DNA of 40,305 nt, taken from NCBI GenBank assembly GCA_028713655.1, contig JAQTNW010000031.1:1-40305 (forward strand). The letters are read 5' to 3'. The notes beneath the pieces were generated by a model, which saw nothing but the letters and a program-made list of their open reading frames with translations, searched no databases and had not been told where the DNA came from. Source of the stretch: Candidatus Methylacidiphilales bacterium. Lineage in GTDB: Bacteria > Verrucomicrobiota > Verrucomicrobiia > Methylacidiphilales > JAAUTS01. The position numbers were made by a program, and so were the translations under genes. How positions within the stretch are numbered: the first letter of the stretch is position 1; each line of letters begins with the position of its first letter. Below, piece after piece: positions 3,216-40,186 of this stretch.

Positions 3216-3310
3216 TAACCAGCATATTCCATACTCATTTCAATGGCCAACCTGTTAGCGCCGGAACGCAACAGCGGAAGGACACGCACTGGGCCTATGC
3301 AGGTTATTGC
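3216..3310 (+). repeat. R1 interspersed repeat, copy A (95-bp core)
   Basis: This 95-bp stretch matches 5096-5190 (inverted) at about 82 of 95 positions and also matches 7124-7218. Shared strings include CATACTCATTTCAATGG and CAACCTGTTAGCGCCGG. Its left end is TAACCAGCATATTCC, a variant of the TIR of the better-preserved copies; the opposite terminal repeat is not recognisable here, so this copy is probably decayed. No protein is encoded. Confidence 0.75.
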
Positions 3311-4769: not shown

Positions 4770-4933
4770 TAGTGGTCTGTTTTCCGTGAAATGACGGGTT
4801 GGCCGCTTGGGATTTGCGCTGCTGGCAAGACGCGAGCGCAGGCCCCTATCTGGACGATACGGGACAAGCGAGCAACACAGCCAGCGGTGCAAAGAACAGC
4901 GGCCCGGAGGGTTGCGCGGAAAACAGACCACTA
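4770..4933. mobile_element. 160-bp MITE-like element with 15-17 bp terminal inverted repeats, IS630/Tc1-like
   Basis: CTAGTGGTCTGTTTTCC at 4769-4785 is repeated as its exact reverse complement at 4918-4934. The ends are CTAG, so the element fits insertion at TA within CTAG with TA duplication, as known for IS630-family transposons. The interior is GC-rich, too short to code for a transposase, and shows no significant ORF. It is therefore read as a non-autonomous element mobilised in trans. Its right CTAG coincides with the left end of R1 copy B, so it seems to have inserted into the edge of that repeat. Confidence 0.75.
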
Positions 4934-5190
4934 GCCCGGATGTTTCACACGCTTCTGAAAACCTCAGCAAAGTGTCCTGCTCCAAAGTGTGGCAGGAACT
5001 GGGGTGCAGGAACATCCGGGTTACAAGCAAAACCGCCTGAATGGGTATTTTGTTTTGATTTTTGAATTGGAACTGCCTTATTTGGAGGCGGTTTTGCAAT
5101 AGCCTGCATATGCCCAACTCGTATCTTTCCGCTGTTACGTCCCGGCGCTAACAGGTTGACCATTGAAATGAGTATGAAATATGCAGGCTA
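4932..5190 (-). repeat. R1 interspersed repeat, copy B, expanded by an internal insertion
   Basis: The ends are imperfect inverted repeats: TAGCCCGGATGTTTCA at 4932-4947 and TGAAATATGCAGGCTA at 5175-5190, matching at 13 of 16 positions when paired. The 95-bp core is 5096-5190. Compared with copy C (7124-7253) there are about 120 extra bases at 4975-5095. The extra segment contains a 12-bp perfect inverted repeat, GCAAAACCGCCT at 5027-5038 and AGGCGGTTTTGC at 5086-5097, and another end-like string (AACATCCGGGTTA) near 5010. It is therefore a nest of short elements. No protein is encoded. Confidence 0.7.
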
Positions 5191-5212: not shown

Positions 5213-5288
5213 CACACATGAAGCTTCGCAACCTTACGGATGGAATCTCTTCACATTACTCGCCCGAAACCTGCCGAAACGTATCCGC
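5213..5288. repeat. R2 interspersed repeat, copy 1
   Basis: GAAGCTTCGCAACCTTACGG and the following 45 bp match 33949-34030 closely (shared: CAACCTTAC, GATGGA, CCGAAACGTA, CCGCC), and match 40104-40142 over the first 35 bp. It lies just past the stop codon of the GH127-type gene. No function is known; it is not obviously a terminator because no U-tract follows. Confidence 0.65.
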
Positions 5289-5306: not shown

Positions 5307-7133
5307 TCATGACGATTTCGGCGATGATTTTTCCGTGGGGAAATAGACGGTATAAGGCTCGTCCTTGATGTCATACAGGGGTTTGAAATGCAGCCCGCGC
5401 TCCTGGCCTTTCAACCGGAATGTGTCTTTCCATTCGCCCCACTGGCGCTCGTTCTCGGGTACTAGAAAAGCCGACGGATGCGCCGGGTCGATTCGGATGC
5501 GGCGCTCTTCGTCCGTCAGGCCGGCAAGCACAACGGGGCCTTCCACAAACGCCACGGTTTCCGGTTCATCCGGAATGGGACTGAGAGTGATTTGCCTCGG
5601 AAACACAACCGTGAACTCCGCATGGTTCCAGACACGCCGGATTTCAAAAAATCCCTGCTTATTGGGCTTGATCGGAGATTCCTTGCCGTTCTCTTTCAAA
5701 AGGGCTTGCGACGCGATCCAGCCCGGCACGCGCAGGGACAAAGTCCATTCCGAAGGCTTCTCACACTGGATTTTAATTTTCACCGACCAGGCGCTGGGAC
5801 GGTGGCGCTCACCTGCAATCGTGGCATTATCAACGGCGCAGCCTCCCTTCGTGATGTCCCAATCCTGTGTCAATGTAATCCTGGATCCGTTCAGGTTATG
5901 TTCGAGGCGGCTGGGAATATATTGCGCAATCTGAATGCCAGCTTCGGACTCGTAATAAACCAGCGACGGGTAATAGGAATGCGCCTGGACGAGGGTGCCG
6001 TGGCAGCACCAGAAATCGCGCGTGGGATGCCCCCAATGTTTTTTGGAACCGGCGGCCAACGGCAGATAATAAAGCACCATCCCTGTGTTAGAATTCTGCG
6101 AAGCCAGTATCCCGTTGTAAAGGTTCCTCTCGATGTAATCGAGATGGGACGAATGGCCCGTCCAGCGGAAGAGATAATCCGCAAGCCGGATCATGTGATA
6201 GACAGTGCAATGCTCCTGGTTCTTGTCTCCGAGCCGTGCCGCAAATTCGTTGGGCGGGCACCAGATTTCACCGGAGTTCTGGCCTCCGGTGCAAAACGCG
6301 CCGCGGTCGGTCACGGCGCATTTCCAATACGCCTCCGTCATGTCGCGCCAGCGTTTCTCGCCTGTAACTTCATACATGCGCGCGGCGCCGAGGATTTCGG
6401 CAATCGTGGTGTTGGCGTGGCGGTTGGTCAAAGCGTCCCTGCCTGCCAGAATCTCGGCATAAAATTTCTCCCTGCTGTAAAGCCGGGCAAGCTCCAGATG
6501 CTTCGGATCTTTCGTGATTTCGTAGAGGTTGGCGAGTTCCTCAACCATCCCACCCGTTTCCACATCGAGGATTTGCTCCCTCGTTGCGGCATCCAGGGAA
6601 CTGAACCAGCGGTACAACCATTCGACAAATTTTTTTGAAAGCTCCAGCGCGGTTTTGTTCCCGGCGTGCACATGGGATTCCCGGAGTCCCAAAAGAGTCT
6701 TGTGAATGACATAATGCGGCGCCCAGGGAGGCAATCCCTGCGCGAGCCAGTGCAGGTATTTTTCGGGAAACGAACCGAGCCATCCGTCGCCGTTGCGTTC
6801 CTGGCAAAGGGCAAGGCGTTGAATGACGGAATCAAGCTTGAGTTTAACGATGGGATCTCCGGTAATCCGCACAAAACGCGCGGCCGCCATCATCCAGCAG
6901 CCCAGAAACTGTCCCCTCACCTGGCTGGTCGGCGATTCCCAGCCCCAGTGCCCCCTTTGGAAACTGGCGTCCGAATGAAAATGAAAAAACTTTCTCAGCC
7001 CTGCCTCCAGTTCGAAATTTTGAAGCAGGTCGTCGTCGGTCAATTTTGTCACATAAGCGCGCGCCAAATCCGAACGTTGTTGGAACAACCCGGGCAAGAG
7101 CGTGATTCCGGAGTCAATTTGTTTAGCCTGCAT
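5307..7133 (-). CDS. GH127-family (DUF1680) beta-L-arabinofuranosidase-type enzyme
   Basis: The 608-residue protein is an (alpha/alpha)6-barrel enzyme of the GH127/DUF1680 type. It has no signal peptide, so it probably acts on imported oligosaccharides in the cytoplasm. Characterised GH127 enzymes use a zinc-bound cysteine as nucleophile with ligands in an E-x-C motif and a Cys-Cys pair. Both are present: QEHC (Glu307, Cys309) and FWCCHG (Cys376, Cys377). Other family signatures are ELEAGLRKFF, GHWGWESPTSQVRGQFLG and ENGxxSP-like C-terminal beta-domain text. Characterised members release L-arabinofuranose; other specificities occur, so the substrate is not certain. ATG 7133 is the only start in the frame (TGA lies two codons upstream), and it sits inside the end of R1 copy C. 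It is the last gene of an operon with the two genes at 7316-10347. Confidence 0.9.
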   Translation of the reverse strand: MQAKQIDSGITLLPGLFQQRSDLARAYVTKLTDDDLLQNFELEAGLRKFFHFHSDASFQRGHWGWESPTSQVRGQFLGCWMMAAARFVRITGDPIVKLKLDSVIQRLALCQERNGDGWLGSFPEKYLHWLAQGLPPWAPHYVIHKTLLGLRESHVHAGNKTALELSKKFVEWLYRWFSSLDAATREQILDVETGGMVEELANLYEITKDPKHLELARLYSREKFYAEILAGRDALTNRHANTTIAEILGAARMYEVTGEKRWRDMTEAYWKCAVTDRGAFCTGGQNSGEIWCPPNEFAARLGDKNQEHCTVYHMIRLADYLFRWTGHSSHLDYIERNLYNGILASQNSNTGMVLYYLPLAAGSKKHWGHPTRDFWCCHGTLVQAHSYYPSLVYYESEAGIQIAQYIPSRLEHNLNGSRITLTQDWDITKGGCAVDNATIAGERHRPSAWSVKIKIQCEKPSEWTLSLRVPGWIASQALLKENGKESPIKPNKQGFFEIRRVWNHAEFTVVFPRQITLSPIPDEPETVAFVEGPVVLAGLTDEERRIRIDPAHPSAFLVPENERQWGEWKDTFRLKGQERGLHFKPLYDIKDEPYTVYFPTEKSSPKSS

Positions 7134-7253
7134 ATTTCATACTCATTTTAATGATCAACCTGTTGGCATTGTGACACAACAGTGGAAAGACACGCACTGG
7201 ACCTATGCGGGTTATTGCAGGGGTTTTCAGAAACGCATGAAACATCCAGGTTA
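7124..7253 (+). repeat. R1 interspersed repeat, copy C (complete, 130 bp, TA-ended)
   Basis: This is the best-preserved R1 copy. Its ends, TAGCCTGCATATTTCA (7124-7139) and TGAAACATCCAGGTTA (7238-7253), pair as inverted repeats at 13 of 16 positions, and both termini are TA. The 95-bp core (7124-7218) matches the other copies. It lies in the 182-bp gap between two operon genes, and its left end overlaps the first ten bases of the GH127-type gene. It has the form of a miniature transposable element, but mobility is inferred only from form. Confidence 0.75.
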
Positions 7254-7315
7254 GCAGTCATGAAAATGTTGGAAATATAAACCCTGTTACATAATACGCG
7301 GCATTTGCACGTATT

Positions 7316-9319
7316 TCAAGCGGGAACGGACGCACTCGATGGCACACTCAGTTTGATCGTATGTGTCGTTCCCTCAGCCTTCGTGGCTCGATAGACTTCC
7401 CCTCCATTGGCTAGTGTAACAACCACTTCAATACCGCCAGCCTGGCGAATGAGCCGCAGATTCCACTGGCGGGCAAAGGCATGGATATTCCGGAGCGATG
7501 CTTCGGGCCAGGCCTTCGGCAGTTTCGGAGTGCATTCAAATGCGTCAAATCCGACAGGGCGAATGCCGCAGACTCCTTCCGTGAAAATGCGGCAAAACAA
7601 ACCGCTCTCCGCCGAAATCTGGCTCTCGTTGAACTCCGGGTAGGCCTCAATACAGTAAGGCACGTGATCCCCCAAAAGCCGCCTGCTGGCATAAGCTGTC
7701 AGACGCAGCAACCCTTCATCGGAATATCCAGACGCGAACACCCCGCGCAGCGCATAGAGCGTTGCACGGTCCCAACGGGTACTCGTATCCGCTTCCGTCA
7801 GCAATCCCTCACCCGTCCAAAGTTCCCGGGAAAAAAGTGCCGCCACAGTTCCGTCCGCCCGGTCGTTAATGCCCACGGCCAATGGAATGCAAATCCAGGC
7901 CCGCAAACGATCCAGGTTTTCATGATAGCGATAGGTTTCATAGCCTTGGATCCTGGCACCAAAGAAGGTTTCGATCGCGCGGCTCAACTCTTCGGCGCGG
8001 TTGAGATATTTTTCTGAAACTCCTGGAGGTTCTCCCAAGGCTTTTGCCAAATGTGCGGCGGAAATCAAAGCATCGTACGTAAGGCAGGAAGTTGCCAGAT
8101 TCGTCTGCCCGGAGGAAAAACGTTCCTCCAACTCGTCACTGTCCGATTTGATGACACCATGTTCGTCCTTTTGACGCTCGCAGTATTCCAGGCACCATTG
8201 GATAAAGGGCCAAAACAAGCGCGCCTGTTGCGCGTCACCATTCGCCAAAGCCCAGCGCGTCGCGCCACAGGCCGTCATCGCCGCATCACCCCGGTCGCCC
8301 GCGCCGTTCCAGACGCCGCGCCCTTCCGCAACCACCGAACTCGGAAGAGGATTGAAAGCATCGTTCTGATACTTTGCAAACCAGCGATAGGCGTTGGCTG
8401 CGGACTCATTCCCCGCCGCGTCACCGAGAAATGGAAAAAAAGGGCCGAGGTACTCGTTCTGATCGTTGCACCACACGGCTGCCAGATAACGGTTGAACCC
8501 ACCCGGACCATGCAGCAATCCACCCCGCGTCGCCAGCACTGTCTCCGCCGCATGCAGTTTGGAAAAGGCAAAGAGCCGGTTCAGCACAGGATCGGGTGTG
8601 ATGAGTTCAAGCTTCGCAAACAACGAATCGCGGTACGCCAAACGCGCGGCCAACTCGGCGTCGAGATCCGGATACAGCGGAGGCTCGTTTTCTTCACGAC
8701 AGGAAAACACCATGCCGACGGTCATGCGCTCGCCGGGAGCAAGTACGCGCAATCCGCCCCCGATCCATTCGGTCCGCACAATATGGGCCGTCCACTTGAA
8801 AAGGTTGCGAGGTTGCGGGATATCCACCGGTGCGCAAGGAATGCGCACACTATGAGCTTGGGAACCGGTGTTGTAAATTTCCCAGCGCTCCAGTAAACAG
8901 GGCAGGCTGGTCGAGGGAAAAATCGTCCGTCTGACCGTCAGTTCACCGGCGGTTTCTTCCCAGGAAAAAAAGCCGTTGATCCAAAACCTCTGCGCCCTTG
9001 ACAAAGCATAAGGTTTGTCGTCAACAAGCAGAGCAGGGTCTGCGGAGGAATCGAAGGTATAACAAAAGGCCGCATGCGTGTCATCCTTGGCTTCCCTCAC
9101 CATGGGCCAACGGACCCATCGCTTGAGTGACGTTATTCCGTCTCCACCCACAGCCCATTGAATGATCGCATTGACCGCGCGGCCGCCCATTTCCAGATGA
9201 TCGCGGTGAACCTCGCCTTTGGTCAACAAGGCAAGGTCGCTTTCAATGCCGCCAGCGGGGGAATGATGCCAGCGTAGCGCGGGTTCAAAATCTCCAGCCC
9301 TGGCAAATGCTATCGACAT
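7316..9319 (-). CDS. Six-hairpin glycosidase-like protein (probable cytoplasmic glycoside hydrolase)
   Basis: The 667-residue protein lacks a signal peptide. An N-terminal beta-sandwich (about 1-230, GLRVLAPGERMTVGMVFSC) precedes an (alpha/alpha)6 barrel (about 260-590) with typical six-hairpin text: LAAVWCNDQNEYLGPFFPFLG, ANAYRWFAKYQ, GDRGDAAMTACGATRW, ARLFWPFIQWCLEYC, FSSGQTNLATSCLTYDAL. A C-terminal beta-domain follows (GFDAFECTPKLPKAWPEASL). This order is shared by several families, among them GH63, GH78, GH95 and GH106-type enzymes. I cannot assign the exact family or the catalytic acids from sequence alone. It lies 50 bp after the aldo/keto reductase gene and 182 bp before the GH127-type gene, which suggests work on the same oligosaccharide. 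Confidence 0.75.
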   Translation of the reverse strand: MSIAFARAGDFEPALRWHHSPAGGIESDLALLTKGEVHRDHLEMGGRAVNAIIQWAVGGDGITSLKRWVRWPMVREAKDDTHAAFCYTFDSSADPALLVDDKPYALSRAQRFWINGFFSWEETAGELTVRRTIFPSTSLPCLLERWEIYNTGSQAHSVRIPCAPVDIPQPRNLFKWTAHIVRTEWIGGGLRVLAPGERMTVGMVFSCREENEPPLYPDLDAELAARLAYRDSLFAKLELITPDPVLNRLFAFSKLHAAETVLATRGGLLHGPGGFNRYLAAVWCNDQNEYLGPFFPFLGDAAGNESAANAYRWFAKYQNDAFNPLPSSVVAEGRGVWNGAGDRGDAAMTACGATRWALANGDAQQARLFWPFIQWCLEYCERQKDEHGVIKSDSDELEERFSSGQTNLATSCLTYDALISAAHLAKALGEPPGVSEKYLNRAEELSRAIETFFGARIQGYETYRYHENLDRLRAWICIPLAVGINDRADGTVAALFSRELWTGEGLLTEADTSTRWDRATLYALRGVFASGYSDEGLLRLTAYASRRLLGDHVPYCIEAYPEFNESQISAESGLFCRIFTEGVCGIRPVGFDAFECTPKLPKAWPEASLRNIHAFARQWNLRLIRQAGGIEVVVTLANGGEVYRATKAEGTTHTIKLSVPSSASVPA

Positions 9320-13620: not shown

Positions 13621-13724
13621 TAGATGCTCTCACTAGATGCTCTCACTAGATGCTCTCACTAGATGCTCTCACTAGATGCTCTCACTAGATGCTCTCACTA
13701 GATGCTCTCACTAGATGCTCTCAC
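13621..13724. repeat. Perfect tandem repeat, 8 copies of a 13-bp unit
   Basis: The unit TAGATGCTCTCAC is repeated eight times without a single mismatch over 104 bp. It lies between convergent genes and outside any credible coding frame. Perfect identity means recent expansion or continuing slippage, so copy number probably varies between strains. There are no spacers, so it is not a CRISPR array. Confidence 0.97.
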
Positions 13725-14920: not shown

Positions 14921-16537
14921 TTAGAATAGGGCCGGTTGGCTCAATGGTTTTATTGGCGACACTTTAACAGCAGATGCCCGCTTCAATTCGGCACACAAAG
15001 CGTCGAATTGCGCACGGGCCTTTTCTATCCCGTTCCTGGGCTTGACGTCCTGGGCGGCCAACCTTGCATCGATCTCGTCCAGCAACGGATAAATCCCGCC
15101 AAAATGCAAAGCCCTGCCTTTCGCAGCAGCCAACGTACATGGAAGAATTTCAGTCAGGTTGCTGAATTCAAACGCGTATCGGAGATACCAATCCTTCTGG
15201 CCGGCGGCACCCCAGTCATCCAGGGCGATATGAGTCCGATGCAGAACGGCAAATGCATGATAGCGCAATAGATAGTCCTCCAGCAAAGAGTCGCCGGCAT
15301 AAAGCGCACAGGCATCCCGTACTTTGCGCAACGTGGCGAGATCATCCGCGCTTAGATCTGCCAGCCCCCCCTCGCCCAGCGCAGGAGCCTCCGGAAGCCA
15401 CTCAGCAAATGGGTCCGTAAGATCATCCGGGGTATTTGCTTTGCCGTCCTTGCCGTTTGGACCAAAAATCACGAACTGGACATCTGTTTCAATTCCGATG
15501 CCGTGACCGCGCACATCCCGCAATCCGATGGTTGTGAGGTCCAGGCTCGCGCGCTGAAGATCGGGAACCGTGGAACTGCGCCGAAAGCCATCGGCAAACT
15601 GAGCCAGTGCTTCTTTCGGTTTGCCTGTCAACAAAAAGGTGTAGGCACGAATCCGTGAAGCGGCTGGAGTATCGCCCGCCTGCTGTCGCACCGTCTCCAA
15701 GGCGCGCTCGCGATTGGGGAGTGACGGGTATCCCACGGTGTCCATGGGATTGACAGCGCCGCCCGCGGGGCCCGATTGCTGGAACACCAGAAATTGATTC
15801 GCGCGATCCACGTTCTTATCCAAAGCACTGAGAATGTTGGCGGCAAAGGCAACAGTTTCGTTGAAAGCCTGCGGATTGGGAGCTATGTCCAGACAGAGGT
15901 GGGCGGCCTTTGCCGCTTCCGCCAAATCCCCCTTCCGGGCAAGTATCTCGGTAATACTTCTCTGAGCGGGAAACCAGGCGTCGAGCCTCTCCGGATGCTC
16001 CTCCAAAATACGCTCATAAAGAGACAAGGCATCGTCGGGCTTGTGTGCGTCATTTGCCGCTTGGGCCTTCCTGAAAAGCGTATCGGCAATACCCGAACGG
16101 GCATCATTGGCTCTTGCGGGATATTCCGTTGAAATACGCTCATAAAGATGCAACGCATCGTCTAATCTGCGCTCGTCATTTGCCACCTGAGCCTGCCTGA
16201 AAAAGGTATCGGCAATGCCTGAGCGGGCATCATTGGCCCTTTCGGGGTGTTCGGCTAAAATGCGTTCGTAAATATGCAGGGCGTCGTCAAACCTGCGCTC
16301 GTCTTTTGCCACTTGAGCTTTTCCAAAAATCGTATCGACAATGCCTGAGCGGGCATCATTGGCTCTTTCGGGATGTTCGGTTGAAATACGTTCATAAATG
16401 TGCTGGGCATCGTCAAACCTGCGCTCGTTTCTCGCCTTTTGCGCCTCCTGGAACAAATCCTTGACGGGATCGGGCGCACACCATGCGAACGGGTTTGAGA
16501 GGCAGACCAGAAGAAAGATCAGGGTGAATCGCTTCAT
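14921..16537 (-). CDS. Secreted TPR-repeat protein
   Basis: The 538-residue protein has a signal peptide (MKRFTLIFLLVCLSNPFAWC). Residues 31-190 hold four nearly identical 42-residue helical units, each with (F/L/P)DDA..(I/L)YERI..E(H/Y)P and mostly ANDARSGI. These are TPR-like and should bind other proteins. The C-terminal 330 residues include a GPNGKDGKANTPDDLTDP segment that looks like a short Asp-rich loop, perhaps calcium-binding; the rest is not recognised. The start codon overlaps the previous gene by 4 bp (ATGA), so the two are translationally coupled. It probably works as a scaffold with the propeller proteins encoded on either side. Confidence 0.85.
   Translation of the reverse strand: MKRFTLIFLLVCLSNPFAWCAPDPVKDLFQEAQKARNERRFDDAQHIYERISTEHPERANDARSGIVDTIFGKAQVAKDERRFDDALHIYERILAEHPERANDARSGIADTFFRQAQVANDERRLDDALHLYERISTEYPARANDARSGIADTLFRKAQAANDAHKPDDALSLYERILEEHPERLDAWFPAQRSITEILARKGDLAEAAKAAHLCLDIAPNPQAFNETVAFAANILSALDKNVDRANQFLVFQQSGPAGGAVNPMDTVGYPSLPNRERALETVRQQAGDTPAASRIRAYTFLLTGKPKEALAQFADGFRRSSTVPDLQRASLDLTTIGLRDVRGHGIGIETDVQFVIFGPNGKDGKANTPDDLTDPFAEWLPEAPALGEGGLADLSADDLATLRKVRDACALYAGDSLLEDYLLRYHAFAVLHRTHIALDDWGAAGQKDWYLRYAFEFSNLTEILPCTLAAAKGRALHFGGIYPLLDEIDARLAAQDVKPRNGIEKARAQFDALCAELKRASAVKVSPIKPLSQPALF
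15968..16447 (-). repeat. Four 126-bp internal coding repeats in the TPR gene
   Basis: The unit is 42 codons. Successive units start with FDDA at residues 41 and 83, LDDA at 125 and PDDA at 167, and the DNA of units 1-3 is highly similar (for example GCATCATTGGC recurs near 16110, 16228 and 16354). This points to recent tandem duplication inside the gene. Confidence 0.8.
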
Positions 16538-33948: not shown

Positions 33949-34030
33949 CACATGGTGAAGCTTCCCAACCTTACAGATGGAGCCCCTTCCCATTCTTCAG
34001 TGCGAAGTTCCGCCGAAACGTACCGCCGCC
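33949..34030. repeat. R2 interspersed repeat, copy 2
   Basis: The stretch matches 5213-5288 over its full length (GAAGCTTCCCAACCTTACAG, GATGGAGCCCCTTCCCATT, CCGCCGAAACGTACCGCC) and 40104-40142 in part. Short frames read through it, but none looks like a protein. Confidence 0.65.
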
Positions 34031-34068: not shown

Positions 34069-37000
34069 TTACTGCACGTTCAAATTATCCAACTTGCTGG
34101 TGGCCGTTTTGCTGTTGTCGTGCGAGCAGCTCACCATCCCGGTCAGATAGTTGCCGCTGGTAAACGACACCGTCTGCGCCGCTCCGATCTGAGTCCAGTT
34201 CACTCCATCAGTGCCATAATAGGCCGTGAAACTGTTGTTGCTCTTGACCAGCTTCACCCAGACCGGGAAACTCGCCGACACATTCGACCCATTCTGAGAT
34301 GCTCCGCCGCCCGTGCTGCTGCGGTAAAGGAACTGCAAGCCTATGCCGTTGGTGTAAACCAGATACGCATCTTCCGAACCTGCCCCGGTCGTATCCCGGA
34401 ACATGATACCCGCCTTGCCGTACCCAGGTTGAGTTCCACCTGATGTCCCCGGCTGAGTCACTCTCGCGCTAATCGTATGGGTGGTGCCGCTCACGGTCTG
34501 GCTCACATACTGGAACCCGTCGGCTGAACCCCAGATGTCCGCTCCAGAGCCGTTGACCGTAAACACGCCGCCCGAATAGCTCGAACTTCCAGTCACTCCC
34601 ACCGATCCAATGTCCTGGTTGATCCACGGTGAGGGCAGGCCGCCGCTGGAAGTGTTGACGATCTGGATGCCGTTAAGGCCGCCGTTGCCAGGCGCCCCCC
34701 AAGCCATTGTGAAGCTGCCCGCCGTCAGGCCCGTGTAGTTGACGTAGTTGGCGCTTGGCAGCGTCGGCGGGGTGCCCGTCCCATTCCAAGTGCTGGTGGC
34801 TACAGTCCAGGCGGAACCGCCACCCTGCGTCAAGAAGCTGAAATACTGCGCCGAGCCGCCCGATGGCGTCAGTGAAACGGTTTCATTTCGGCCCGTGGCG
34901 TCAATGCCCGCATACACGTAAATGTCATACTTGGCATAGGGTATTCCGGAAACTGTCAAGGTCGGAGCACCGGGCCAGCCATTAAAAAGCTCACCCGAGG
35001 CCAGCTTTGCGTTGCCCGCAGGCGACGCGGAAGATCCTCCGCCACGATAAGTCCCGTTGGCAGTGCCGGTCAGCTTCGTGCTGGTGGCCGATCCGGAGTT
35101 GTCCGTCAATGCCACGTTGCTAAACGAGGCGCCTGCCAGTGCATTCCAATGGGTCTGGGCCACGGTTGACAGCCCTGCCGAGTCCGTTGCATTCAAGGCG
35201 GTTTGGCCGCCCACAAACTGGATCCCAATTGAGGCCCCTCCGCCTCCGCCGCCGGAAGGATTCACCGTCAGAACGAGTGTGGCCGTGCCAGTGCCGTTTG
35301 CATTGGTGGCGCTGATCGTCACATTGCTCGTGCCTGCCACGCTCGGCGTGCCGGAGATCAGCCCGCTAGACGTGTTCACGCTCAACCCTCCGGGCAATCC
35401 CGTCGCATTGTAGCTCGTCGGACTGTTGCTGGCTGTGATTTGATAGCTAAACGCAGTGCCCACCGTTCCACTGGTTGTCAGAGCGCTGGTGATGGATGGC
35501 GCAGACCCGCCACCACTGGTGGGACCCGCTGCATAATTGGCCGCAATCTGGCTCGCAGTCAAAGCCCCGTTATAAATCCGGAACTCATCAATCGAACCCG
35601 CGAAGTCCTGATCTCCGCCAAAGGGCGATCTTCCCAGCCAGAACTCCACAAAGTTGATGTTGGACACGTTCTTGCCCCCCAGCGATGTCGTAACCGGTGA
35701 GCCGAGCGAACCGCCTGCAGGTGCAATATACAGGGACTGGATATTCCCCACCCCATCATACACGCAGGCAAAATAATACTTCGTGCCGGTGGAAACCAGC
35801 GGCCCGGCAACGGCCTGCTGCGAGCTTCCGGTGGCAAGGAAATCCACGCGGCTGTGGCCGTCCGTGCCCTGGGAAGATGTCAGTCCAAGGAAGGAACTCG
35901 TGTCCGTGTTCCCCGGGAAAAACACCTTCTCCCAGTTCGCAACTGCGCTTTCCGTAAACCAGCCTTCGAAGCTGGCACTGGTCAATCCGCTCATGACCGA
36001 AGTCGGCAACGAACCATACGCAGTCCCATTGCTACCGCCCGACAACTGCAACGCGCCACCGCTGATGCTGGCGCTTCCGTTCAACGTGCCGTTGGCCGTC
36101 CCGACGCTGTCATTGAAGTTACCCGCGTTGAATGTGTATTGGTGGGTCAGCGTCGCCCCACCTCCGGAAGGATTCACTGTCAAGATCGCATTATTGGAGG
36201 TCACGCTGCCGGCACTGTTGGTCACCACGCAGCGGAAGGTTGAGCCGTTATCGCCAATGACCGTTGCCGGTGTGGTGTAGCTTGTGCTTGTCGCGCCCGC
36301 GATATTTACGCTGTTCTTCTGCCATTGAAAGGCCGGCACAGGGTTTCCTGTCGCCACCACGCTGAAGGTGGCCGTCTGGCCGACTGTCACCGTTTTGTTG
36401 GCTGGCTGAGTGGTGATGGTTGGCGCTGACGTTCCTGCTGTTCCTTGCCAGACACGGATGTAGTCAACCTGCATCGTGCTCGGAAACACGGTCGGGAGCG
36501 GCGTGTCAGTCCTGTTACCTATGTCATAGACGAGGATTACGGCATCCGGTACGCCTGACACTTCCTTCGTGATCGTCCCCTTCTTCACCCCATCGTAATA
36601 AAAATCAAGTTGCGTTGGCGTCCAAAGGACGGAATAGGTGTGCCAACTGTTGGACCACACACCGGGCACGTCAAAATTTTTGAGGGGATCCATCCAGTCG
36701 TCCGGCCTGCCCGCGGAATGGAGATGCGACCCAGGGATGGAGTGAAATTCTGCAACGTCGATTTCATTGGTCGGCCATGGGTAATCATCTGTGTTCATCC
36801 AAAATGCCGGCCAGCCAGCAACACGACTGTCGGTTGCCGAGACCGCAGGCAGATAAATGCGTGCCTCAAAAACGCCATAGGATTGCTTGAACTGGGCGGG
36901 TGTGGGTTGACCAGGGATCCCCCAACTATGCAGCATCGCTGTCGTGTAGGGGAAGAACCGTCCGGAACTGGTCACGGACTCGGCCCGGGCGGTCAATTTT

Positions 37001-37435: not shown

Positions 37436-39949
37436 CTACGGCGTAACCGTCACATTGTCGAAGGTGGCAGTGCTCAACGTGGCAGTATTATGGCTGCATA
37501 CCGGCAGTCCAATATAGACATTGGTCCCCATCGTAATGGTTTGCGGTGTTCCCACCTGGGTCCAGGTTGTTCCATCGCTGGATTTGTATCCCGTAAACAC
37601 GTTGCCCACACGCGTCACCCGCAGCCAATACGGCACCGTCCCGGTGCTCGTGGCTGCCTGAGCCGATGCGCCCGCCGTCAACCGGTACAGGAACTGGACG
37701 TTGATAGGCTGGATCGTCATCATCGCGTGCGCCGAACCCGCCGTCAGATCCGAGCGGATCATCACGCATGCTTTCGCATTGTTGCTGGTGTTGGTCTGGC
37801 TCGCCACCCGCGCGGTGATGCTGCAATCGCCGCTGGCCGCCTGATACGCATACTGGAAGGAGTCGGCTGTTCCCCAAATATCCGACCCGGCACCCTTGAT
37901 CGTGAACACCCCGCCCGAGTAGCTCGAACTGCCCGCAACTCCCACCGAGCCGATGTCGGTATTCACCCAGGGCGAAGGCAGGCCGCTGCCGCCGGTCGGA
38001 CCTGCGGCAAAATTCGCCGAAATCTGGCTCGAAGACAAAGCTCCGTTGTAGATCCGAATCTCATCCAGCGATCCCGCAAAGTCCTTGTCGCCACTGAAAG
38101 GTGAACGTCCGATGTAGAACTCGTTGAAGACGATGTTGGACACATTCTTGCCGCCCATCGAGGCGGTGAGCGGAGCGCCGATTGATCCGCCCACTGGTGC
38201 GACATACAGGGATTGGGTATTTGCCGCACCGTCATACACGCAGGCAAAATAATATTTCGTGCCCGGCGTGATCGCCACGCCTCCGGTGGCATACTGGGTC
38301 CCGCCTGCGCCCAGGAAATCACTGCGGCCCATGCCGTTGGTTCCCTGGGAAGTTGTCATGCCCAGAAAGGAGGTCGTGTTCGTGTTGCCCGGGAAAAAGA
38401 CCTTCTCCCAGGTCGCAATCGCGCTCTCGGTGAACCAACCTTCGAAGCTGGCGCTGGTCAGGCCGCTCATGATTGAGGTAGGCAACGAACCATAGGCGGT
38501 CCCATTGTTGCCTCCCGGCAACTGCAACGCGTTGCCGCTGATGGCGGCACTTCCGTTCAACGTTCCGTTGGCCGTCCCGACGCTGTCATTGAAGTTGCCG
38601 TTGAACGTGTATTGGTGCGTCAACGTCGCGGGGCCTGAAGTAGGCAACGAATAAACCCGGACCCAATCCACCAGGAAAGTGGAGTTGTTGACCATTCCGT
38701 ACAATGGCCAACCTCCCCCAAGAGCATAATCGATCATGATATAAAAGGGCGCCGACATATGACTCGTCGGGGTCGCGCACTGGTTGGTCTGTACCCCATC
38801 AATGTACATCGTGATGTTCGTGGGTGTCACCAGAACGCCGTAAATGTGATACCCCTGCCACGGATAACTTCCATCCGGCATCGGAGTTTGCGCCGCACTG
38901 ATGTGGGGAAGTGTGTTATCCGTGGGATTCCAGTTGTGCGTATTCTGTGCAACAAAATTCTGAAGATTACCGGGCGTGTTGCAGACACCGTACCATTCAA
39001 ACATATCGATTTCTTCGGTGGGCAACCCATCACTGACCGCCGGTATGCCGTTCCGGCTGTTCATCCAAAAGGCAGGCCAGGCACCCGAGCCGGAATTCGG
39101 CATCTGGCAGCGGATTTCAAAGTAACCGTAGAGTTGGGCAAAACCGGCCCCGCTTGGATCCATAGAAGACAGATTGCCCGAATGCCACTTGCCCAGCGTC
39201 ACGCTGCTTACAAGCGGCGTACTGCCGGACTTTAAATTCACAGGACCAAAGGTGTTCCAGTCCAGGTTATGAAAGCTGGTGTCATAATACGCCGCATTCG
39301 GATTCTTGATGGCGCTCGTGGTGGTGATTTGTGGATAGCCGCAGTCATAGTTCTGGTCACCGCCATTGGTCTCCTGGCTCATCAGGTAATAACTGTGATT
39401 GGCCGACAAGGTTACGGCGGTTGTCAGATTCGCATAGACAAAGCCAACAGGTTGGCCCGAAGTGTTGACAGTCGCGGAACCATTCGGCACATCCACTCCA
39501 TTGGACGCATCCACCAGTTTAACCACATGGCTCTGGGAGTTGCCTGAGATGACCCAACGTCCCACACTATTGATGACCACGGCGTTCGCGCCGGTCGTGA
39601 ATTTAAATCCCACCCAGCCCGACCAGTTGTTTCTTGTCCCCACATCACTCGTGTTAATCCAGGCCTTGTCAGTGAGAATGCCGCCTGCGGCGCTGAAGGC
39701 GGCCGCATCCCACTTCGAGTCGGAATAGGCGCCCGATGCGCCATAGGGTGGCACGTAATACCAGGTGGAAGCTCCTTTTGGATTGCTTGTGGTGACGCTG
39801 ACACTGTTGAACTCATCAGCAAAAGTCAGCGTGTAGCCGCTCAGGTTGATGTCCGACTGTGCCTGGACCGGAGTGAAGGCCATGCAAACAGCCAGCAAAG
39901 CCATGAGGGCAAGAATGCTGGTTTTAATCCGTGCTATTTTTGTTTTCAT
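37436..39949 (-). CDS. Secreted GH16 endoglycanase with nested domain, LamG and DUF1349-like modules
   Basis: The 837-residue protein has a signal peptide (cut near VQAQ, residue 31). GH16 begins at FADEFNS (43-49), is interrupted by a foreign beta-sandwich segment at about 105-225 (GRWVISGNSQSHVVKL, SQETNGGDQNYDCGY), and resumes with YGYFEIRCQMP and WPAFW. The active site is EIDMFE, Glu313 and Glu318. A LamG domain (about 445-650) and a DUF1349-like C-terminal module (SPWVNTDIGSVGV) follow. It is the closest relative of the gene at 1-1891. AAGGA lies 15 nt before the ATG. It is downstream of a LacI-type gene and an 18-bp palindrome, suggesting sugar-responsive control, and ends at a clear terminator. 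Confidence 0.93.
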   Translation of the reverse strand: MKTKIARIKTSILALMALLAVCMAFTPVQAQSDINLSGYTLTFADEFNSVSVTTSNPKGASTWYYVPPYGASGAYSDSKWDAAAFSAAGGILTDKAWINTSDVGTRNNWSGWVGFKFTTGANAVVINSVGRWVISGNSQSHVVKLVDASNGVDVPNGSATVNTSGQPVGFVYANLTTAVTLSANHSYYLMSQETNGGDQNYDCGYPQITTTSAIKNPNAAYYDTSFHNLDWNTFGPVNLKSGSTPLVSSVTLGKWHSGNLSSMDPSGAGFAQLYGYFEIRCQMPNSGSGAWPAFWMNSRNGIPAVSDGLPTEEIDMFEWYGVCNTPGNLQNFVAQNTHNWNPTDNTLPHISAAQTPMPDGSYPWQGYHIYGVLVTPTNITMYIDGVQTNQCATPTSHMSAPFYIMIDYALGGGWPLYGMVNNSTFLVDWVRVYSLPTSGPATLTHQYTFNGNFNDSVGTANGTLNGSAAISGNALQLPGGNNGTAYGSLPTSIMSGLTSASFEGWFTESAIATWEKVFFPGNTNTTSFLGMTTSQGTNGMGRSDFLGAGGTQYATGGVAITPGTKYYFACVYDGAANTQSLYVAPVGGSIGAPLTASMGGKNVSNIVFNEFYIGRSPFSGDKDFAGSLDEIRIYNGALSSSQISANFAAGPTGGSGLPSPWVNTDIGSVGVAGSSSYSGGVFTIKGAGSDIWGTADSFQYAYQAASGDCSITARVASQTNTSNNAKACVMIRSDLTAGSAHAMMTIQPINVQFLYRLTAGASAQAATSTGTVPYWLRVTRVGNVFTGYKSSDGTTWTQVGTPQTITMGTNVYIGLPVCSHNTATLSTATFDNVTVTP

Positions 39950-39976
39950 AATAGTGCTCTTGTTCCTTATGTTAGT

Positions 39977-39994
39977 ATCGCTTTACTGGCTACA
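39977..39994 (-). promoter_or_regulatory. Conserved 5' leader motif of the second GH16 gene
   Basis: This is an exact copy of the 18-mer at 1920-1937, in the same orientation and at almost the same distance from its start codon (27 versus 28 nt). Confidence 0.5.
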
Positions 39995-40093
39995 TTTTTG
40001 TGCAAAAATAAAGGGGCTCGGCACATTGTGGGATCAGGATTGTTGCCCATGTCGGAACTATTTACTTCACTCGCTTCAATGTCCAGTACGAGA

Positions 40094-40111
40094 TTACCTG
40101 ACATCAGGTAA
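40094..40111. promoter_or_regulatory. Candidate regulator-binding palindrome upstream of GH16
   Basis: TTACCTGACATCAGGTAA has perfect 8-bp arms around CA. It lies 145 bp upstream of the GH16 start at 39949 and 75 bp after the stop of the LacI-type gene at the right edge. It may be an operator for that regulator, though its centre is not the CG usual for the LacI family. Confidence 0.4.
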
Positions 40112-40142
40112 AACTGCCCAACCTTACGAATGGGGTCTCTTC
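40104..40142. repeat. R2 interspersed repeat, partial copy 3
   Basis: GCCCAACCTTACGAATGG and GTCTCTTC match the left half of the R2 copies at 5213 and 33949. The right half is not recognisable. Confidence 0.5.
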
Positions 40143-40186
40143 AGATGCTTTATGTTAAAGCAGGGGCGAACAAGAGCTATCGCTGC

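Follow-up and report, generated by a model that had tools for sequence, protein, structure and literature searches.

Here we describe a miniature transposon that lies across the beginning of a GH127-type gene in Candidatus Methylacidiphilales bacterium, where it seems to have entered codon 3 and to have rebuilt the start codon from its own end. The native ATG still stands beyond the far side of the element, in frame once the element is removed. The window analysed (the whole stretch of 40,305 nucleotides) corresponds to contig C31 in a draft genome of 3.29 Mb. Several unrelated genes in this bacterium appear to have had their starts replaced by the same repeat family. The features on which the analysis rests are collected in Table 1.

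Table 1 Features at the GH127 locus and candidate repeat-started genes elsewhere in the genome (positions are those of the window unless another contig is named)
Feature	Position	Strand	Remarks
GH127-type beta-L-arabinofuranosidase gene, 608 aa, intact; candidate repeat-started gene	C31 5307-7133	-	PF07944 + PF20736; no better start
ATG supplied by the terminal inverted repeat (TIR) of the element	7131-7133	-	Codons ATG CAG GC(T) repeat-derived
Copy C, miniature transposon	7127-7250 (124 bp)	-	TIRs CCTGCATATTTCA / CCTGGATGTTTCA
Target-site duplication TTAG, gene side	7123-7126	.	Same letters as the other flank
Target-site duplication TTAG, far side	7251-7254	.	Flank comparison
Displaced native start ATG ACT G/CTAA	7259-7261	-	Beyond the far target-site duplication; in frame after excision
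37-codon leader ORF created by the insertion	7148-7261	-	From native ATG into the repeat; stop TAA 7150-7148
Promoter-like site TTGAAA-17-TATTAT	7291-7319	-	Outside the repeat, upstream of the native ATG
Copy B, full length, 259 bp	4932-5190	-	Downstream of the GH127 gene; 98% to consensus; identical CTAG flanks
Copy A, lone decayed L module	3216-3310	+	Core shared with copy C
birA, candidate repeat-started gene	C10:12564		No better start
AddB-like PD-(D/E)XK nuclease gene, candidate repeat-started gene	C10:27114		No better start
Secreted protein, candidate repeat-started gene	C43:25984		MKALNPSIPLLFLL (displaced start) to MQVNPSIPLLFLL
Membrane-anchored protein, candidate repeat-started gene	C1:139356		MKRSKSRRRR (displaced start) to MQAKSRRRR

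The insertion at the GH127 gene

The initial annotation had described a 130-bp repeat at 7124-7253 with TA termini and with inverted ends identical at 13 of 16 positions. The inverted ends were recovered as described (TAGCCTGCATATTTCA versus TAACCTGGATGTTTCA) and TA is present at both termini, but the duplicated target is TTAG, a 4-bp site of the form YTAR, and not TA. Copy C comprises an L module on the gene side and the last ~35 bp of an R module (see below), and is evidently an old, internally deleted member of its family and not a full-length one. It has a core of 95-96 bp in common with 3216-3310 (copy A) and 5095-5190 (within copy B), at 81-82% identity. Its predicted RNA fold is unexceptional (z = -1.26) and places the repeat's ATG within a stem. 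Mis-assembly at this point is improbable: copy C has diverged well away from every other copy, and both the duplications and the reading frame across it are consistent.

The ATG and first codons of the GH127 gene were said to lie within the repeat, with the frame closed just upstream. Both statements hold: the start reads CAT at 7131-7133 of the forward strand, and an in-frame TGA precedes it by one codon. This is the sole in-frame ATG near the N-terminus of the gene, whose product matches the GH127 catalytic domain over residues 10-389 (PF07944, E = 9e-83). Deletion in silico of the element together with one target-site duplication yields ATG ACT GCT AAA CAA ATT GAC, MTAKQIDSGITLLPG, with the GH127 frame kept, and changes the N-terminus from MQAKQIDSG... 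to MTAKQIDSG.... The repeat-free ancestral site would read ATGACTGCTAAACAAATTGAC or similar. Orthologous loci lacking the insertion had been suggested for comparison at the outset; the comparison was made with a GH127 paralogue on contig C19 (73% identical, intact and free of the repeat), which begins at a start of its own and with another N-terminus (MTTPLTTIDSG). From the displaced in-frame ATG and the start of this paralogue, we infer that the insertion struck codon 3 of the GH127 gene and that the repeat rebuilt the start with the change of one residue (T2Q). No close GH127 orthologue was found among relatives, the named genomes holding only distant ones (42-48% identity) that are unusable as an empty site.

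Upstream of the gene, the leader ORF ends 14 nt ahead of the repeat's ATG. The promoter-like site is the only match in 7080-7340 and is a weak one (1 found against 0.5 expected in shuffles). The repeat had been credited with both the start codon and the 5′ leader. The first attribution stands, whereas the leader would consist of a native promoter followed by transcribed repeat, the promoter-like site lying outside the element. Translation, here and at the other genes considered below, would start at the repeat's ATG.

Other repeats were observed in the window. A 44-nt sequence (..CCCAACCTTACRGATGG..) is present in three copies at 75-77% identity (5217-5260, 33954-33997 and 40107-40150), one of which adjoins copy B. 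The 13-bp tandem repeat TAGATGCTCTCAC occurs in about eight copies at 13621-13724, and 126-bp repeats lie at 15986-16456. Both ends of the window carry long paralogous genes (1-1954, 35580-36156 and 38056-40011), segments of which are 71-91% identical.

The repeat family and its probable parent transposon

By its sequence, the element at 7124-7253 belongs to a family of miniature transposons (MITEs) dispersed through the genome. The proposed genome search, run with copy C, returned 54 matches, and the core recurs at dozens of other loci. The family is short, non-coding and multicopy, with a consensus of 259 bp bounded by imperfect TIRs of ~16 bp; 11 end-to-end copies match the full-length consensus at 92-100%, alongside many decayed ones. 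The end motif TARCCYGSATRTYTCA has 294 matches in the 3.29 Mb, compared with 8 for a reversed control (≤2 mismatches), and the family consensus was unmatched in 60 relatives of the same family or order. The consensus is composed of three modules, L, M and R. The L module (92 bp) starts with TARCCTGCATATTTCA and ends with TATGCAGGYTA, M is a short hairpin, and the R module (92-94 bp) has the form TARCCCGGATG...CATCCGGGYTA. L and R are also found singly, or joined as an L+R unit of ~185 bp. Every L end carries an outward-facing ATGCAGGYTA, with its ATG at exactly 8 bp from the target TA. Copies have unrelated neighbour genes, are found in both orientations, nest in one another and in one case lie within a coding gene.

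Flanks of 4 bp of the form YTAR are identical in 28 of 41 paired elements (shuffle mean 10.8; 0 of 20,000 shuffles reach 28), so that the apparent terminal 'TA' forms the middle of a 4-bp YTAR duplication. The likeliest source of the family, although not a proven one, is IS1380, because its ends and YTAR duplications in the same order, a comparable MITE in a sister-genus genome and a broken remnant in this genome all point to it. In genomes of the same order, full-length IS1380 elements (PF13701) bear the ends CCSCCATTTCTCAC, and the two YTAR flanks are identical in each of six copies. The TIR of the repeat shares 9-10 of 14 terminal positions with the IS1380 ends of sister genera, and an outward ATG is also present in IS1380 ends (AATGGCGGCTA). 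Contig C1 of the sister-genus genome (G032, same order) carries dozens of ~178-bp IS1380-type MITEs near full-length IS1380 copies with the same ends; the YTAR flanks of this MITE are identical in 26 of 29 cases. No intact IS1380 was found in the genome under study; such a parent would be expected to carry the ends CCYGSATRTYTCA. The genome does hold one broken IS1380 remnant, with the end CTAA followed by CCCGGAAAACTCAC, and a segment beside this remnant resembles the M-R part of the MITE (73 of 107 positions identical).

A different parent, whether TA-type (IS630/Tc1, like Correia, ERIC and RUP), IS701, IS5 or RAYT/REPIN, is rather unlikely and would concern the parentage only, leaving the start-codon reading unaffected. 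Such a parent would suit the TA termini and the palindromic ~92-bp modules, which are reminiscent of REP clusters; four Y1 transposase genes and DDE_Tnp_1 genes are present in the genome, and IS701 and IS5 have YTAR-like targets. The TA-type MITEs were rejected on the duplication, which is 4-bp YTAR and not 2-bp TA, and an IS701-derived MITE on the absence from the draft genome of the transposase domain PF13546 (DDE_5). Similarly, none of the four Y1 genes has matching ends nearby at ≤2 mismatches, and the intact DDE_Tnp_1 gene (C48) has other ends at the thresholds used. By contrast, same-order IS1380 resembles the repeat in its ends and agrees with it in target-site duplication.

Other genes putatively started by the repeat

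Reading frames were surveyed in stretches of the genome surrounding the listed ends (1.52 Mb in total), with 61 outward L ends and 58 R ends. A frame test that applied a strict cut-off to codon scores proved too noisy, and one on abutting coding ORFs took its place. A coding ORF abuts 14 of the 61 L ends, compared with only 3 of the 58 R ends (Fisher P = 0.008). Of the 14 ORFs, 12 share their frame with the repeat's ATG (P = 0.006 against one half, because the remaining frame is closed by the stop TAR); these P values and the one below are indicative, the test categories having been set while viewing the data. About 5 of the 12 in-frame ORFs have no better start than the repeat's ATG (Table 1). 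In the remainder (tsaE, hisH, DUF192, rhamnose-isomerase-like and others), an ATG or GTG follows a few codons inward.

Among the four start-supplying elements whose far end is known, three have an open, in-frame displaced ATG within 18 nt, versus 3 of the 41 others (P = 0.005). The three are those at the GH127 gene, at the secreted protein and at the membrane-anchored protein; for birA, the nearest ATG upstream is out of frame. The same frame test applied to the ~178-bp MITE of G032 gave no in-frame excess (13 versus 14), and the start-codon pattern is therefore not general.

Two further copies were observed within or between genes. A minimal element of ~38 bp (C59:10122-10159), with both ends, almost nothing between them and CTAA flanks, lies where a thiL-like gene meets tsaE. 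The frame upstream of it continues to what appears to be its original TGA, and the element gives tsaE an in-frame ATG four codons ahead of the GTG. At C20:14693-14783, the reading frame of a penicillin-binding protein 1C-type gene (pbpC) continues unbroken through an L module.

Mechanism, rival readings and known systems

We propose that a non-autonomous IS1380-type MITE entered the GH127 gene at codon 3, duplicating a 4-bp YTAR target and cutting off the native ATG. The outward ATG of the L end, in the right phase, would have put ATG CAG GCT AAA in the place of the native ATG ACT GCT AAA, and the insertion would have been tolerated because this ATG stands 8 bp from the target TA. Transcription would run from the native promoter through the element, and translation would begin at the repeat's ATG either as a fresh start or as a restart after the 37-codon leader ORF. 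One portable start codon may thus serve about five unrelated genes of this genome. The insertion, the duplication, the displaced in-frame ATG, the open and intact gene and the family-wide in-frame excess are read from the DNA, to which the proposal adds mobilization by IS1380 and actual use of the ATG; taken with these two steps, it is probably correct. More tentatively, the TIR itself might be a portable translation start, with an outward ATG in one frame and a YTAR-formed stop in another. Insertions that part a gene from its start would then persist where they create a new one. Selection on phase and orientation could in this way have seeded the repeat-started genes, birA included, and the stem might couple the start to the upstream leader ORF.

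A first rival holds that the insertion broke the gene, that the in-frame ATG is a coincidence of one in three and that GH127 is an untranslated, decaying remnant. The intact paralogue on C19, at 73% identity, could make this copy dispensable, and the start, which lies within a predicted stem, is not preceded by a clear Shine-Dalgarno sequence. Nonetheless, the 1.8-kb ORF of 608 codons is intact while copy C differs from its subfamily consensus by ~7% (92.7% identity). In a neutral simulation, the ORF stayed free of premature stops in 0.6% of runs at 7%, which is an upper estimate of the divergence since insertion given that the founding copy may not have matched the consensus to begin with, in 4.7% at 4% and in 20.6% at 2%. 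The same in-frame arrangement in other genes, including birA, also speaks against a broken gene, and we consider this reading unlikely. The divergence of the GH127 gene from its paralogue (dN 0.20; dS 2.4, saturated) mostly reflects older history.

It is more improbable still that the repeat's ATG is idle and that translation starts elsewhere, at a TTG at codon 13 or 16 or by coupled translation entering further down. Bacteria do use TTG starts, these codons are present in frame in GH127, and several of the 12 in-frame ORFs have a plausible start just downstream, which is a caveat to the main reading. However, such a start would cut the conserved IDSG..LLPG that GH127 has in common with its paralogue, and the Pfam match of GH127 begins at residue 10; the secreted and membrane proteins would lose part of their hydrophobic signal or anchor. 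Finally, copies are palindromic and lie near gene starts, as a regulatory RNA leader of a regulon would, but this reading is very hard to credit given the target-site duplications, the nesting, the two orientations, the insertion within pbpC, the unrelated neighbours, the dozens of copies and the absence of an Rfam family (the one match, to a miRNA in copy B, fell below threshold at E 0.08); the original preference for a mobile repeat over a regulon leader is thereby upheld.

On the proposed reading, a gene can survive the arrival of a mobile repeat within its first codons, since the end of the repeat restores a start codon. The three genes with a displaced native start still in place would be natural before-and-after pairs, with which it becomes directly testable whether transposon ends evolve tolerance by means of start codons. 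Start-site annotation near such repeats may be misleading.

The family resembles IS1380 insertion sequences and their derived MITEs in its 4-bp YTAR duplications and ends of the form CCNSSATNTYTCA; unlike them, its L, M and R modules are lineage-specific, with partial homology beside the one broken IS1380 remnant. Within the literature collection searched, no paper was found on IS1380 with YTAR, nor on a MITE with IS1380 and Verrucomicrobia. For MITEAba12 of Moraxellaceae, which has 9-bp target-site duplications and the parent ISAba12, it was raised as a possibility, with data not shown, that start codons at the terminal ends could fuse with neighbour genes (PMC6382973). Both are miniature transposons with terminal start codons, whereas here the fusions are at known genes and the displaced native ATG is kept. 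ERIC/RU-1, YPAL/RU-2 and Correia are small inverted-repeat mobile elements that form in-frame gene fusions, some of them at N-termini (PMC2759123, PMC2229807); they have TA-type ends and give tens of codons, compared with two to three codons and a replaced start here. Rickettsia palindromic elements lie in frame within ORFs and encode a conserved peptide (reviewed in PMC10969869). The pbpC copy is likewise read through, but the main pattern here is at the gene start. In-frame fusions of MITEs with genes and proposed start codons at MITE ends are thus known; what is added is the recurrent replacement of starts, with displaced native starts that can still be read.
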